Assembly: GCA_020073525.1 (NCBI GenBank)
Contig: JAIQFA010000007.1
Coordinates: forward strand, 1 to 64,000
Length of the DNA stretch: 64,000 nt
Source of the DNA: Terriglobia bacterium
GTDB lineage: Bacteria; Acidobacteriota; Terriglobia; Terriglobales; Acidobacteriaceae
Reading direction: 5' to 3'
Of the stretch, positions 31,245 through 36,129 are shown piece after piece; positions within the stretch are counted from its first letter, which is position 1; the number at the start of each line of letters is the position of its first letter. The notes below the pieces were generated by a model. It made no database searches, was not told the origin of the DNA, and was given only the letters and a program-made list of their open reading frames with translations. A program made the translations under genes and the position numbers.

Positions 31245-32765
31245 TTACTTCACTTCGATGACTGCCAGCGCGTCCGGAGCCAGATCAAGAGTCAATTCGC
31301 CCTCGGTCAACTCACGGATTTCGGCCGGAGGCAATTGCGAGGCCTGTTGCAACGCCTTGAGTTGTTCCTGGCTGGGGTAGCGCGGTTGTCCCATTTTTTC
31401 GTAGGCCGGATGCACGTCCCCGTGGTCGCGATCCACGCGCGAAATATACGCCCGGCGGCTTCCGGCAAGATGGTCGAATCGCAGATGAATTGTCTTGGAC
31501 GATCCGGTCTGGTCCAGAGGAACGAGATTCCACGCCGCGACTACCAACGAACCATCCTTCTTGCGCGTCACCAGCACGGAACTGGAGTCCACCGTAATTC
31601 GTTCGTTACCTAATTCGTGCAGCAATTTGAATGCGTTGAACGACGGCTTGGGAATACCGCCGGCCGCGATCAGTCCAAAGCCACCGTAGAAGGGCTCTTT
31701 CACTACGCCCTGTTCCTCGAAGACGTCAGAGAACGTCCAGTAGGACATCATATCCGCCAAGCCATCGCACTGACGGATGGTGTCAGCCATCCAGGGACCC
31801 ATGTAGATAGAGTCGGTAACGGCAGGCTCAAAAAAGTAGCTGGCGTTGTACTCGGTCCAGATCAGAGGCAGGCTGGGCATGGTCGACGCCCGGATCTCGT
31901 CGTGCACTTTCTTGACCGCACGGCACACCATCTGGTCGCACGGAATCTTCTCGTCCGTGCCAAAGACATCTTGGGCGCGGTCGTTGCCGTAAACGTGGGA
32001 GGAGACGAAATCCACGGGAACCTTGTTTTCGGCACAGTGCCGAATGAAGATGTCGGCCCATGCGGCCTGCGCGGTGGAGGGTCCACCCACACGCAGGCGC
32101 GTACTCACTTGCTTAATGGAGCGCGCCGTGTGATCGTAAAGCTCCCAGTAGGTGGCCTGTTTCGGTTCCCCCGCCCAGAAATCAATATTCGGTTCGTTCC
32201 AGACTTCAAAGTACCACTGCGCGACCTCGTCGATGCCGTAACGCTCCACGAGGTGCTTGGTGAACGCGGTAATGAGATCATCCCACTTGTCCCAATCTTT
32301 CGGCGGAGAGACGTTCTGCTTATACCAAAAAGGATGCAGGTCGCCTTCGCGGGCAGCCAGCTTCTTGGGCATGAAACTTAGTTCGACGAGCGGGCGCACA
32401 CCGTTGGCCAGCAAGCCGTCATAGATCTGATCCACGTAGGAAAAGTTGTACTGGGGACGCCCCTGCGGGTCCTCGTCGTAGACGCCGACTTCATCATGGA
32501 AGATGGCGTGGAAGCGAACGTATTCGAAGCCTGTAATCTTTTTGACATCGCGGAGATCCTTGCGGTAGCTCTCGCGCAACGTCACGATGGCGCGCTCGGA
32601 ACCAAACATCTGCTCCCAGAAGTGGGGGAGGGGATGGGTGGGGGCGGTGGCATCGATGACGACTACGCTGGAGTCTTCAGGTGTACTCGCTCCCTGAGCG
32701 GGCGCGCGATGTATCAACGTCAGGGCAAAGACGACGACAACGACAAGTCGGGTGTTCTTTCTCAT
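31245..32765 (-). CDS. Exported GH39-like glycoside hydrolase
   Basis: 506 residues, signal peptide (MRKNTRLVVVVVFALTLIHR, cleavage near PAQG). (beta/alpha)8 hydrolase of clan GH-A resembling GH39 beta-xylosidases: YVRFHAIFHDEVGVY near the N-terminus, acid/base Glu in FEVWNEPNIDFW, nucleophile Glu in LIWTEYNASY, followed by GLADMMSYWTFSDVFEE and a C-terminal beta domain. Predicted to release xylose or a related sugar from glycans outside the cytosol. ATG 32765 with AGGATC upstream. No immediate partner gene; otsB ends 170 bp upstream on the same strand. Confidence 0.87.
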   Translation of the reverse strand: MRKNTRLVVVVVFALTLIHRAPAQGASTPEDSSVVVIDATAPTHPLPHFWEQMFGSERAIVTLRESYRKDLRDVKKITGFEYVRFHAIFHDEVGVYDEDPQGRPQYNFSYVDQIYDGLLANGVRPLVELSFMPKKLAAREGDLHPFWYKQNVSPPKDWDKWDDLITAFTKHLVERYGIDEVAQWYFEVWNEPNIDFWAGEPKQATYWELYDHTARSIKQVSTRLRVGGPSTAQAAWADIFIRHCAENKVPVDFVSSHVYGNDRAQDVFGTDEKIPCDQMVCRAVKKVHDEIRASTMPSLPLIWTEYNASYFFEPAVTDSIYMGPWMADTIRQCDGLADMMSYWTFSDVFEEQGVVKEPFYGGFGLIAAGGIPKPSFNAFKLLHELGNERITVDSSSVLVTRKKDGSLVVAAWNLVPLDQTGSSKTIHLRFDHLAGSRRAYISRVDRDHGDVHPAYEKMGQPRYPSQEQLKALQQASQLPPAEIRELTEGELTLDLAPDALAVIEVK

Positions 32766-32935: not shown

Positions 32936-33763
32936 TCATCCATTCACGGCCGCAGCCGCGCCGCTGTCAAAAGTATCATATTGAGTACACATCTTGAGCC
33001 ATAGCCCGAGAAAATCGAGGAGTTCGTCGGGAGGCTGCAACCACAACTGGGCAGCAGTCTGGCGCCACTTGGGACGCACCAGCACGCTGATGCCGCGGCC
33101 CTCCATGGCCCTAAATGCGGATTCGTCGGTGGCGTCGTCGCCCAGATAAGCGGCTGGGGCGTCGGGACTGATTTCACTCAAAAAGGCGCGAACCGCATCT
33201 CCCTTATCGGCATGGCTCGCGCGTATTTCCACGCCGCCGTCGAATTCCAGGAGATCGAGTCCGCTGTGCTGCGCTATGGGGCGCCAGCCAAGCATGACGC
33301 GGGCGCAAAGATCCTCCACCTCGATTTCACTCAATCCGCGCCAGTGAACGGCAATGCTTCCTGCCTTGAATTCCGCAGTGTGGCGCAGTTGCTGGTAACC
33401 AAGCCAGCGATCGGCATCCGACAGACCATCGAGTGTTCGCTCGTCCAGGTGCGGCATCTCCAAACTCCCGTCAGTCCTCAAACGCTGCAGCCCGTGGACT
33501 CCCCAGACTTCGGGACACGGGTGAATGTTGAGCAGGGGGAGGACATCGGGCGCATCTCGGCCGGAGATGACAACTACTCGCGTGCGGCCATTGCGTATGA
33601 TGTCTTGCAGGATGAGCGCTGCCCCGGGATACGGGTAGGCCTGGTCGCGCCGGGCGTGAAATGGCGCCAGCGTTCCGTCGTAATCGAGCAATAGTACCGC
33701 CTGCGACGCATGGGCAACAGTGTGTAGAAACGGTGTAAGTTCGGATTGCACTTCTGGCCTCAA
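32936..33763 (-). CDS. otsB: Trehalose-6-phosphate phosphatase
   Basis: 275-residue HAD-superfamily phosphatase. Motif I LLLDYDGTLAPF carries the nucleophile and acid aspartates; motif II is VVISGRD; motif IV is LGDDATDESAFRA. HADKGDAVRAFL is also OtsB-like. It removes phosphate from the OtsA product to give trehalose. The start is inferred at TTG 33763 (LRPEVQSELTPFL) because AAGGAGA lies 6 nt upstream; the frame is open further, into otsA, up to 33895. It is 62 bp after the otsA stop on the same strand, so an otsAB operon. Confidence 0.88.
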   Translation of the reverse strand: MRPEVQSELTPFLHTVAHASQAVLLLDYDGTLAPFHARRDQAYPYPGAALILQDIIRNGRTRVVVISGRDAPDVLPLLNIHPCPEVWGVHGLQRLRTDGSLEMPHLDERTLDGLSDADRWLGYQQLRHTAEFKAGSIAVHWRGLSEIEVEDLCARVMLGWRPIAQHSGLDLLEFDGGVEIRASHADKGDAVRAFLSEISPDAPAAYLGDDATDESAFRAMEGRGISVLVRPKWRQTAAQLWLQPPDELLDFLGLWLKMCTQYDTFDSGAAAAVNG

Positions 33764-33825: not shown

Positions 33826-36129
33826 TCACGCCACGGTCGCGCTGGCATGAACCTTGCCCGGCACATCCTCGGGAGCATCCAAACGCACCTCGCAAAGTTC
33901 GGTAATCAGGTTTCCGGCCCAGCGGTATATGTTGTTCTCCTTGATCACCTTTCGCATACGACGCATACGCAACTCTTTGTCTTCCGGTTCCATCTCTAAC
34001 GCGGCGCGAATCGCCTCGGCGGTCTGATCGATGTCGTAAGGATTCACCAGCAGGGCGTCGCGCAGTTCGCGGGCCGCTCCCGTGAACTGGCTGAGGATCA
34101 GCACGCCGCGCTCGTCCCGGCGTGCAGCCAAAAATTCCTTGGCCACAAGATTCATGCCATCGTGCAACGAAGTCACCAGGCAGAGATCGGCGGCTCGGTA
34201 ATAAGGCTCGATCTCTTTATGACTGTGCTGGCGGTTGAGGAACACGATGGGCTTCCACTTTCCGCCTTGGAAACGCCAATTGATGCGCTCCGCCTCGGCC
34301 TCCACTTCGGCGAGCAAGTCGTGATAGCGCTTGATGTGAGTGCGGCTGGGCGCTCCAATCTGCACGAACGTGAACTTCCCCTGATAACGGGGATATTTTT
34401 CGAGGAACCGCTCAATCGCCAGGAAGCGCTCCAAAATTCCCTTGGTATAGTCGACACGATCGACGCCAACCCCCATGAGAGTCGCCTCCACGCCCAGAGT
34501 TCGCAACAGAGCGGAACGTTCGAGGTAGTTGAAGCCGTGATTGTTGTTTTCGGCGGCGTCATCCTCGCTGAAGGCAACGCTGATAGGAAAGGGCCGCACC
34601 AGGGTGCGGTGATCCTGGCGGAGCACGGAAAAATGTTCCCGGTCCACGCGCGACTCCACGACACGGTCGACGGTCTCCAGAAAATTGTTGCAGTGCGACT
34701 GGACGTGAAACCCGATCAGGTCGGCTCCGAGCAGACCGTCCACCAACTGGCGCTGCCAGGGGCAGATGCCAAAGGCTTCCGGATTCGGCCACGGAATGTG
34801 CCAGAAGATCGCCACGCGCGCATCCGGCCGCTTTTCCTTGATCAGCCGCGGCAGTAACGCGAAATGATAATCCTGAACGAGCACCATCGGTTTCGCGACA
34901 TTCTCGATTTCTTCGAGCACCGCGGCCGTGAACTTGCGATTGACCTCCTGGTAGTACTGCCAGTCGGCGGCCCGAAATAGAGGGCGGGTGTGTGCGATAT
35001 GACAAAGGGGCCAAAGCCCTTCGTTGGCAAAGCCGTAGTAGTAACCCTCCTCTTCCTCCTTGGTAAGCCATACCCGGCGCAAAGTATAGCGGGGATCTTC
35101 GGGAGGAACGCGCAACCGGTCGGCGGCGTCCACGACTTCAGTGTCGGCATTGCCACTGCCGTGCGCGATCCAAGTGCCGTCGCATGCATTCAGAACAGGT
35201 TCGAGCGCGGTGACCAGGCCGCTCGGCGGAACGACCACCTCGAGCGCCTTCCCGTTTCGCTGGTGCATGTAAGGCTCACGATTGGAGACGACGACTAGAT
35301 GGCCATCCTCCAGACGGGTGCGGAGTTGCACCGAGAGGCGATCCGCAGTCCACATAGACTCACCCGCTTCGCGCAGGCGAGCCTCATTTTCGGCTGCGTT
35401 GCGGGCATGGCTGAGGCTCTCAGCCATAGTCGCAACTTCGCGCACCAGCGGCCGGAAAATGTCAAAGTCCGGCACCTCCTGGTGGAAGGAGATCTTTCCC
35501 GTGCGCAGCGCGCGCATCCACACGGCGGCCCGGGCAATCGGACCCGTGATACTCCAGCGGACAATCAACAGCGTGATCAGAACGATCAGGAAAACCTGCG
35601 CCAGCACGCGGAAGAATGTCTGGCGCCAGACGAGCAGGATCTGCGCGCGGATGTAGCTCACATCATGCACTACGGCCATGCCGCCCAAGACTTCATCCTG
35701 GCGGCGAATCGGCAACCCAAGGATGTGAACCGGCGTGCTCCCCAGCCTGAGGAACGAACTCTCTTCGTGACCCTGCGTGATGGCCTGCGCCATGGGCCCC
35801 GGACACCCGGTCAGTGTTTTCGCCAGCTCCGTAGTTACCGCGACGACGGTGCCCTGCCGGTCACAGATCACCACTCCCAGCAGGTGCTCCCGGTTTCCGA
35901 AGCGCTGCACAAGTCGCTGCAGCTCCTTGTTTGGACCTGCTGGCGAGCCGGCGTTCCACGACCGCTCGACATTGCCCACCAGGCTTTCCCCAAGAATCTC
36001 GTCGCGACGCTCCACATCGCTCCGCAGAGCGCGCTTTTCGCCCAGTACTTCGTAGTAGGAAAAGCCAGAGGATACAAGCGTGATGCCGACAATCAGAGAG
36101 ACGATGAGGCGAACGCTCAACAGTCGCAT
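33826..36129 (-). CDS. otsA: Trehalose-6-phosphate synthase fused to a membrane sensor and HAMP module
   Basis: 767 residues against about 470 for ordinary OtsA. N-terminal part: TM1 (about 7-27), extracytoplasmic domain (about 28-175, with [16 protein letters not shown] like a Cache fold), TM2 (about 175-192), HAMP (about 193-245, [20 protein letters not shown] and a second helix). GT20 catalytic domain about 277-745: [78 protein letters not shown]. It makes trehalose-6-phosphate from UDP-glucose and glucose-6-phosphate at the inner membrane. Signal-controlled synthesis is inferred. ATG 36129 with AAAGGA upstream. Confidence 0.9.

Follow-up and report, generated by a model that had tools for sequence, protein, structure and literature searches.

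A GT20 enzyme of probable OtsA type joined to a transmembrane Cache-HAMP-like module: a conserved fusion with the anatomy of a receptor

Introduction

Rapid synthesis of protective solutes under stress is usually explained by transcription and by a diffuse influence that ions or metabolites have on the enzymes involved. A gene of a Terriglobia bacterium (Acidobacteriota; assembly GCA_020073525.1), a soil bacterium, raises the question of whether an enzyme of this kind can also be the direct output of a transmembrane receptor. The window referred to below is the whole stretch of DNA that was analysed, 64,000 nucleotides in length (positions 1 to 64,000 of contig JAIQFA010000007.1). An original prediction, made from the letters of the window, placed a trehalose-6-phosphate synthase of the GT20 family, built onto a membrane sensor with a HAMP domain, at 33826-36129. 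These coordinates are exact, with the gene itself lying on the minus strand, where 33826-36129 forms one open reading frame of 767 amino acids with an ATG start; the plus-strand reading of the same interval is interrupted by stops. The encoded protein consists of a transmembrane helix (TM1), a Cache-fold domain, a second transmembrane helix (TM2), a HAMP-like domain, a pair of helices and the GT20 domain, and the analysis presented here shows that the fusion is real, conserved and intact, and that it has the anatomy of a receptor.

The membrane-bound sensor module

The predicted order of TM, sensor, TM, HAMP and GT20 was borne out by a profile-profile match, by the alignment with a histidine kinase, by an AlphaFold model and by structural matches. 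TM1 comprises approximately residues 3-27 (36049..36123, minus strand) at the start of a modelled helix, whereas TM2 is found at approximately residues 166-190 (35560..35634, minus strand), both being placed by the hydropathy of relatives and by the helices of the model. Between the two lies the extracytoplasmic domain, approximately residues 28-165 (35635..36048, minus strand), which is modelled with a single Cache/PDC fold. As a fold search with the full model was filled by GT20 matches, the N-terminus was folded and searched separately. The resulting model of residues 1-277 (monomer; mean pLDDT of 85.2, pTM of 0.62) contains a long N-terminal helix (residues 2-59) and, between the two TM helices, a PDC sheet (83-156), followed by a helix traversing the membrane into the HAMP-like domain (158-210) and by two further helices (223-259 and 262-275).

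The nearest solved folds are the extracellular domains of WalK/YycG, with Z-scores of 16.2-16.8 over 133-138 residues, the best of them being 4ywz (Z 16.8, rmsd 2.5, 138 residues), and the full WalK integrative model 9a5d is also matched (Foldseek E 3.7e-10; Z 16.0, rmsd 5.9, 275 residues). These are followed by CitA, DcuS, DctB and the ligand domains of chemoreceptors, and complexes with citrate, malonate, succinate and amino acids are found among the matches; in other receptors, a sensor fold of this kind binds small molecules. At the level of sequence families the domain is divergent: the Pfam model sCache_3_2 gives 18.5 bits on the window protein, under its cut-off of 28.4, reaches 32.9 bits in one relative (L130), and matches 3 of 49 relatives at E ≤0.01, while among PDB sequences compared with a profile of 28 N-termini a histidine kinase ranks first, weakly (E 0.0024).

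The domain that follows TM2 (residues 189-239; 35413..35565, minus strand) is called HAMP-like, or a divergent HAMP, because the Pfam HAMP model has no match in the window protein; PF00672 matches 2 of 49 relatives at E ≤0.01, the best at 0.006. Its assignment is based on HAMP sequences of the same genome, a profile of which aligns gap-free with residues 189-239 along all of its 51 columns, at an hhalign probability of 80.6 and an E-value of 1.3e-5 (one comparison), whereas the control profiles, eight column-shuffled and one reversed, each gave a probability below 1. It has to be noted that this profile was built from 23 stretches of that genome (24 matches, one of them left out) and that nine of the 24 fall in one protein, an open frame of 1951 amino acids (G000:C124:52600-54960). 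In addition, residues 5-250 of the window protein align (BLASTP E 3e-13) with a histidine kinase (L200) that scores 53 bits on Pfam HAMP and comes from a different genome of the phylum. The divergent domain keeps Pro197 and Gly211, and the DE.G motif of many HAMP domains of the same genome is replaced by xPLxRE.

The HAMP-like domain is connected to the enzyme by helices at residues 241-276 (AR.aA..EArlR...es.WT.eRL; 35302..35409, minus strand). Among 81 representatives of the main clade described below, the mean pairwise identity is 0.28 in the sensor, 0.31 in TM1/TM2, 0.33 in the HAMP-like domain, 0.48 in residues 241-276 and 0.57-0.64 in GT20. In the same set, the spacing from P227 to W260 is 33 residues in 70 and 34 in 11, and that from W260 to R284 is 24 residues in 77 and 25 in 4, whereas the HAMP connector (P197-P227) ranges from 22 to 32 residues and the sensor varies in length as well. 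The helices, through which a signal would have to pass, thus combine a near-fixed length with the best conservation outside the enzyme. Several of the soluble sister proteins start near W260 and are without the AR.aA..EArlR stretch, which therefore seems to be proper to the membrane forms. In the alignment, a fixed linker length was not found in a second group of sensor-HAMP proteins, where the segment leading up to W260 is shorter and differs between members.

The GT20 enzyme and the adjoining otsB gene

The catalytic domain occupies residues 278-745 (33895..35298, minus strand), where PF00982 scores 401.3 bits against a cut-off of 32.5, and the gene is the sole GT20 over the Pfam cut-off in its genome. 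The window protein shares 32% identity with OtsA of E. coli, and the GT20 part of the model matches the OtsA structures 5jio (Z 44.6) and 1gz5 (Z 43.3). Sixteen positions were tried as the donor- and glucose-6-phosphate (G6P)-binding active-site positions of E. coli OtsA, with the chain counted without its Met. At fifteen of them, including R9, G22, Y76, W85, D130, H154, R262, K267, R300, D361 and E369, the window protein, E. coli OtsA and six relatives have the same residue; the sixteenth, numbered Trp40, is Gly in E. coli and Ala in the window protein, so that this number is off. An inactive GT20 domain serving as a sensor is not favoured, as the active-site residues are kept.

The otsB gene, coding for trehalose-6-phosphate phosphatase, directly adjoins the fusion gene on the same strand (32936..33763, minus; PF02358 58.8 bits; TIGR00685 79.1 bits, cut-off 68.05). 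Its probable start, judging from the sequence, is a TTG at 33763, behind AAAGGAG and about 60 nt past the otsA stop, while the longest otsB open reading frame extends to 33895. Farther downstream, also on the minus strand, are found a GH39 glycoside hydrolase (31245-32765) and a putative glucoamylase (PF10091; 28687-30084).

The conserved residues and the adjacent otsB make it likely that the GT20 domain is of the OtsA type and makes trehalose 6-phosphate. The product is nevertheless deduced, because the window protein does not reach the cut-off of TIGR02400, the NCBIfam equivalog model of OtsA (429 vs 564.85 bits), and because the model of glucosylglycerol-phosphate synthase gives 311.5 bits; the model of the bifunctional OtsA-OtsB scores 483. 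The genome encodes, elsewhere, a TreS as well (911 bits), so that the fusion gene is not its only possible route to trehalose.

Distribution of the fusion

The architecture recurs among relatives: the complete sensor-HAMP-GT20 order is found in 153 of 208 classified loci, or 140 of 195 distinct GT20 sequences, in a set that was gathered with the window protein as query and is thus not a random sample. Completeness was scored by a script rule, under which one locus discussed below (L118) counted as complete. The carriers belong to Acidobacteriota, Omnitrophota, Elusimicrobiota, Bacteroidota, Patescibacteria and others, with the names of phyla taken as labelled in the database records. Named loci were the best 80 of 579 confirmed full-length matches, and those fetched by genome search were likewise the best of their lists; such a choice favours the complete architecture, whereas the following counts of genomes are free of that filter.

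With a full-length match defined as starting at or before position 33 of the query and ending at or after 724 (matches cut by contig ends or split were not counted), the fusion was found, among the matches listed, in 36 of 100 genomes of the family, the bacterium's own included, and in at least 33 of 396 genomes of the phylum. The samples of other phyla, each including the genome on which it was centred, gave 37 of 145 genomes for Omnitrophota, 15 of 119 for Elusimicrobiota, 9 of 239 for Patescibacteria and 4 of 247 for Bacteroidota, again among the matches listed. The nearest named relatives, within the best 80 of 579, are from Terriglobia, Acidobacteriaceae and Candidatus Sulfotelmatobacter (Acidobacteriota), with 66-87% identity. 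Named records add Nitrospirae, Methylomirabilis, Rokubacteria and a Gemmatimonadetes metagenome-assembled genome (MAG), for which binning errors are possible. Nearly all of the named carriers are MAGs; Niastella soli MAH-29 (L133), in which the gene lies on a 716 kb contig, is a named strain.

Phylogeny and selection

In a quick tree of 138 GT20 domains, the window protein falls in a clade of 88 rows (SH-aLRT 96), 81 of which are complete, whereas five have TM and HAMP pieces (two of them, L032 and L134, being cut by contig ends) and two were scored as having none. Of the latter, one (L148) is cut by a contig end with its HAMP still visible, and the other (L050) is split by a frame change with the N-terminal module present. 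A second quick tree, of 78 rows, gave a clade of 37 rows around the window protein, with a support of only 86, and placed the soluble forms, among them those from Omnitrophota and Elusimicrobia, in a sister clade (SH-aLRT 98). Random loss of the module among close relatives, which the original prediction had named as evidence against its reading, is therefore not what is observed, since neither the 88-row nor the 37-row clade holds an intact soluble member. A further group of six sensor-HAMP rows (L051, L053, L057, L058, L198 and L199) is placed among the soluble forms and, to judge by this position, may represent a separate second fusion.

The main clade has exceptions of another kind. Four genes are without the extracytoplasmic domain, three of them with two TM helices and HAMP (L042/L245, L144 and L149) and one with a single TM helix and HAMP (L237), and no remnant of the domain was detected in another frame of these genes at E 1e-3. 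As they have kept TM and HAMP without the domain outside the membrane, they weaken the notion of an outside signal. In two MAG genes (L118 and L236), TM2 and part or all of HAMP are missing in frame, which may be an assembly error, decay or a real oddity.

Distances between N-terminal modules follow those between GT20 domains (Mantel r 0.79 for 81 representatives, with 0 of 999 permutations as high). The dN/dS values are 0.09-0.22 for residues 1-190 in nine pairs and, in the eight pairs that allowed each to be calculated, 0.06-0.16 for HAMP and linker and 0.03-0.07 for GT20, with synonymous sites near saturation in most pairs; the pair least affected by saturation (with L087) gave 0.13, 0.08 and 0.05, respectively. 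The module is under purifying selection and is evolving together with the enzyme. A decaying or randomly lost module is not supported in the main clade, given the lack of an intact soluble member and a dN/dS well below 1.

Gene neighbourhoods and related fusions

Of 77 named loci (from the best 80 of 579, three being left out as too short), 46 have otsB immediately downstream. In the window, no osmotic gene was found beside otsA, and the genome has elsewhere one weak match to DUF5752 (24.9 bits, cut-off 23). Four neighbourhoods of relatives that were examined singly (L099, L111, L118 and L120) hold DUF5752 and TreT, a trehalose synthase. Two of these contain an MscS domain (PF00924) fused to DUF5752 (PF19027), at L099:1261-2640 and L120:6997-8388, in clusters with otsA-otsB and treT, while DUF5752 stands alone between otsB and treT in L111 and L118. 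Na+/H+ exchanger genes are near the fusion in L118 and L120 and a CLC channel in L111; another locus (L152) has a separate MscS gene upstream, and GH15 proteins with a trehalase-like N-terminus neighbour the fusion in L135 and L142. A Pfam scan of 79 of 141 listed neighbour open reading frames from 30 loci, called by length only, returned six DUF5752, six TreT, two Na+/H+ exchangers and two MscS, most of the proteins being unrelated; two further, partly overlapping sets of ten were scanned as well.

A related clade of GT20 proteins has an antiporter at the N-terminus. PF00999, the Na+/H+ exchanger family, was found in three of the four presumed antiporter fusions scanned (L183, L184 and L188) and not in the fourth (L187), and the clade amounts to nine rows by TM count (with L179, L185, L186, L187, L189 and L191). 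In L183 (1708-4467), L184 and L188 the exchanger and GT20 share one open frame, and the clade is from the same phylum. In the 138-domain tree, this clade branches outside the group formed by the sensor-HAMP proteins and the nearer soluble forms and thus does not stand as the direct sister to the clade of the window protein. Taken together, the MscS-DUF5752 proteins, MscS, exchangers and antiporter fusions of the relatives point to an osmotic or ionic physiology.

Proposed mechanism and alternative explanations

The model that we regard as probable, with appreciable room for doubt, is that of a receptor in a single protein, which gates the synthesis of trehalose 6-phosphate through HAMP; we infer its product, its dimerisation, the flow of the signal and the direction of control. 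The stimulus would be perceived either by the extracytoplasmic Cache-fold domain or within the membrane bundle, and TM2 would in response shift the bundle that the HAMP domains form in a dimer. Through the HAMP output helix and its continuation in the near-fixed-length helices 241-276, this shift would then alter the N-terminal Rossmann domain of GT20, as TM2, HAMP and these helices are predicted to run straight into its first Rossmann strand, beside the active-site residues Arg284 and Gly304. Trehalose 6-phosphate would thereby be made faster or slower without delay, and OtsB, encoded by the adjoining gene, would complete trehalose. In mycobacterial OtsA, the N-terminal domain is reported to have the greater mobility, with its first helix shifting during catalysis (PMC6879718), so that a HAMP twist applied at this domain would be a plausible lever. 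The two genes without TM2 (L118 and L236) can be reconciled with such a receptor only as products of misassembly or as decaying genes. Osmotic or ionic stress is favoured as the stimulus on the basis of the product and of gene context in the relatives, not in the window. The original prediction, in which an outside signal such as osmotic stress would directly control trehalose synthesis, is in this way supported in part, namely in its architecture, whereas control of activity by the module and an osmotic signal are putative.

Other explanations differ from this model to varying degrees. One that shares its core, and that we hold to be a real possibility, if short of probable, is that the receptor-enzyme answers to a small-molecule ligand such as an organic acid, an amino acid or a sugar, and not to osmotic stress. 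The sensor fold, which is nearest to WalK and then to CitA, DcuS, DctB and chemoreceptors, with citrate, malonate, succinate and amino-acid complexes among the matches, speaks for such a ligand, but against it stand the neighbours of the fusion in some relatives, which are of an osmotic or ionic kind (MscS-DUF5752, MscS, Na+/H+ exchangers, CLC), and the antiporter fusions of the related GT20 clade. A greater departure would be a module that serves mainly to hold the synthase at the membrane, e.g. near a transporter or OtsB, with HAMP and Cache relaying no signal. The retention of TM and HAMP by four genes without a sensor domain, and the sensor being the fastest-changing part (identity of 0.28), speak for such a tether; it needs, however, neither a Cache-fold domain kept across phyla nor a HAMP, nor a linker of near-fixed length with the top conservation outside the enzyme, and the N-terminal dN/dS is well below 1, all of which makes it unlikely.

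Two further possibilities concern the enzyme and the gene. That GT20 yields another product, e.g. glucosylglycerol phosphate, under the same receptor would agree with the missed OtsA equivalog cut-off, but the higher scores of the OtsA (429) and OtsA-OtsB (483) models compared with that of glucosylglycerol-phosphate synthase (311.5), the preserved residues of the G6P site and the adjoining otsB leave it a very slight chance. As for the fusion being an artefact of assembly or annotation, the genome is indeed an assembly of 210 contigs, but a misassembly or a mis-called start is ruled out by the recurrence of the architecture in 140 of 195 distinct sequences, including that of Niastella soli MAH-29 on its 716 kb contig, and the idea deserves practically no credence. 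With the receptor that gates the synthase thus preferred, cells carrying the fusion may switch the making of trehalose on or off straight from an outside signal.

Relation to known systems and significance

The window protein shares with OtsA of E. coli (1gz5) and Mycobacterium (5jio) the catalytic fold, the active-site residues and the adjoining otsB, but differs in having an N-terminal receptor, which neither of those enzymes possesses. Conversely, it shares with transmembrane sensor histidine kinases of the WalK/YycG type the order TM-Cache/PDC-TM-HAMP and the fold, whereas their output is a kinase and the window protein has, by Pfam, no kinase domains, its output being a biosynthetic glycosyltransferase. 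A sensor and HAMP fused directly to an enzyme, with no phosphorelay, are likewise found in transmembrane receptor-enzymes such as the HAMP-coupled adenylate cyclases; these make second messengers, however, whereas the product of the HAMP-GT20 protein would be the precursor of a protective solute. The Na+/H+ exchanger-GT20 fusions carry a related GT20 and an N-terminal membrane module, but the latter is a polytopic antiporter and the clade is a separate one. Post-translational regulation of a GT20 enzyme is also described for mycobacterial OtsA, which is reported to be under allosteric control by 2-oxoglutarate and 2-phosphoglycerate, acting at an interfacial site, and thus by metabolites and not by a membrane receptor (PMC6879718). 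The same study cites OtsA as an osmotic stress sensor in Arthrobacter.

A search of the open-access literature found nothing on HAMP-GT20 proteins or on a sensor or antiporter joined to OtsA, and no paper on DUF5752; in the portion of a 2024 review of prokaryotic alpha-glucan enzymes that was available, with 36 mentions of OtsA, the term "HAMP" was not found. The parts of the receptor and the enzyme are known, then, while this class of output is not described in the literature searched, and databases may list the architecture uncommented. We put forward, tentatively and as somewhat short of an even chance, that these proteins form an undescribed class of receptor biosynthetic enzymes carried under at least eight phylum labels, in which a transmembrane Cache-HAMP receptor would have a compatible-solute enzyme as its output and an osmotic or chemical signal from outside would lead directly to solute synthesis, without a kinase, a second messenger or transcription, with a related line coupled to a Na+/H+ antiporter and with DUF5752 coupling the pathway to a mechanosensitive channel.

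A HAMP receptor with an OtsA-type enzyme as its direct output would add a further route to rapid solute synthesis, and the outputs of HAMP would extend from signalling enzymes to biosynthesis. The fusion recurs in groups that are known largely from MAGs, such as Acidobacteriota, Omnitrophota, Elusimicrobiota and Patescibacteria, as well as in one named strain at least, Niastella soli, an entry point for work in the laboratory, and the antiporter-GT20 and MscS-DUF5752 fusions indicate the same physiology from other sides.
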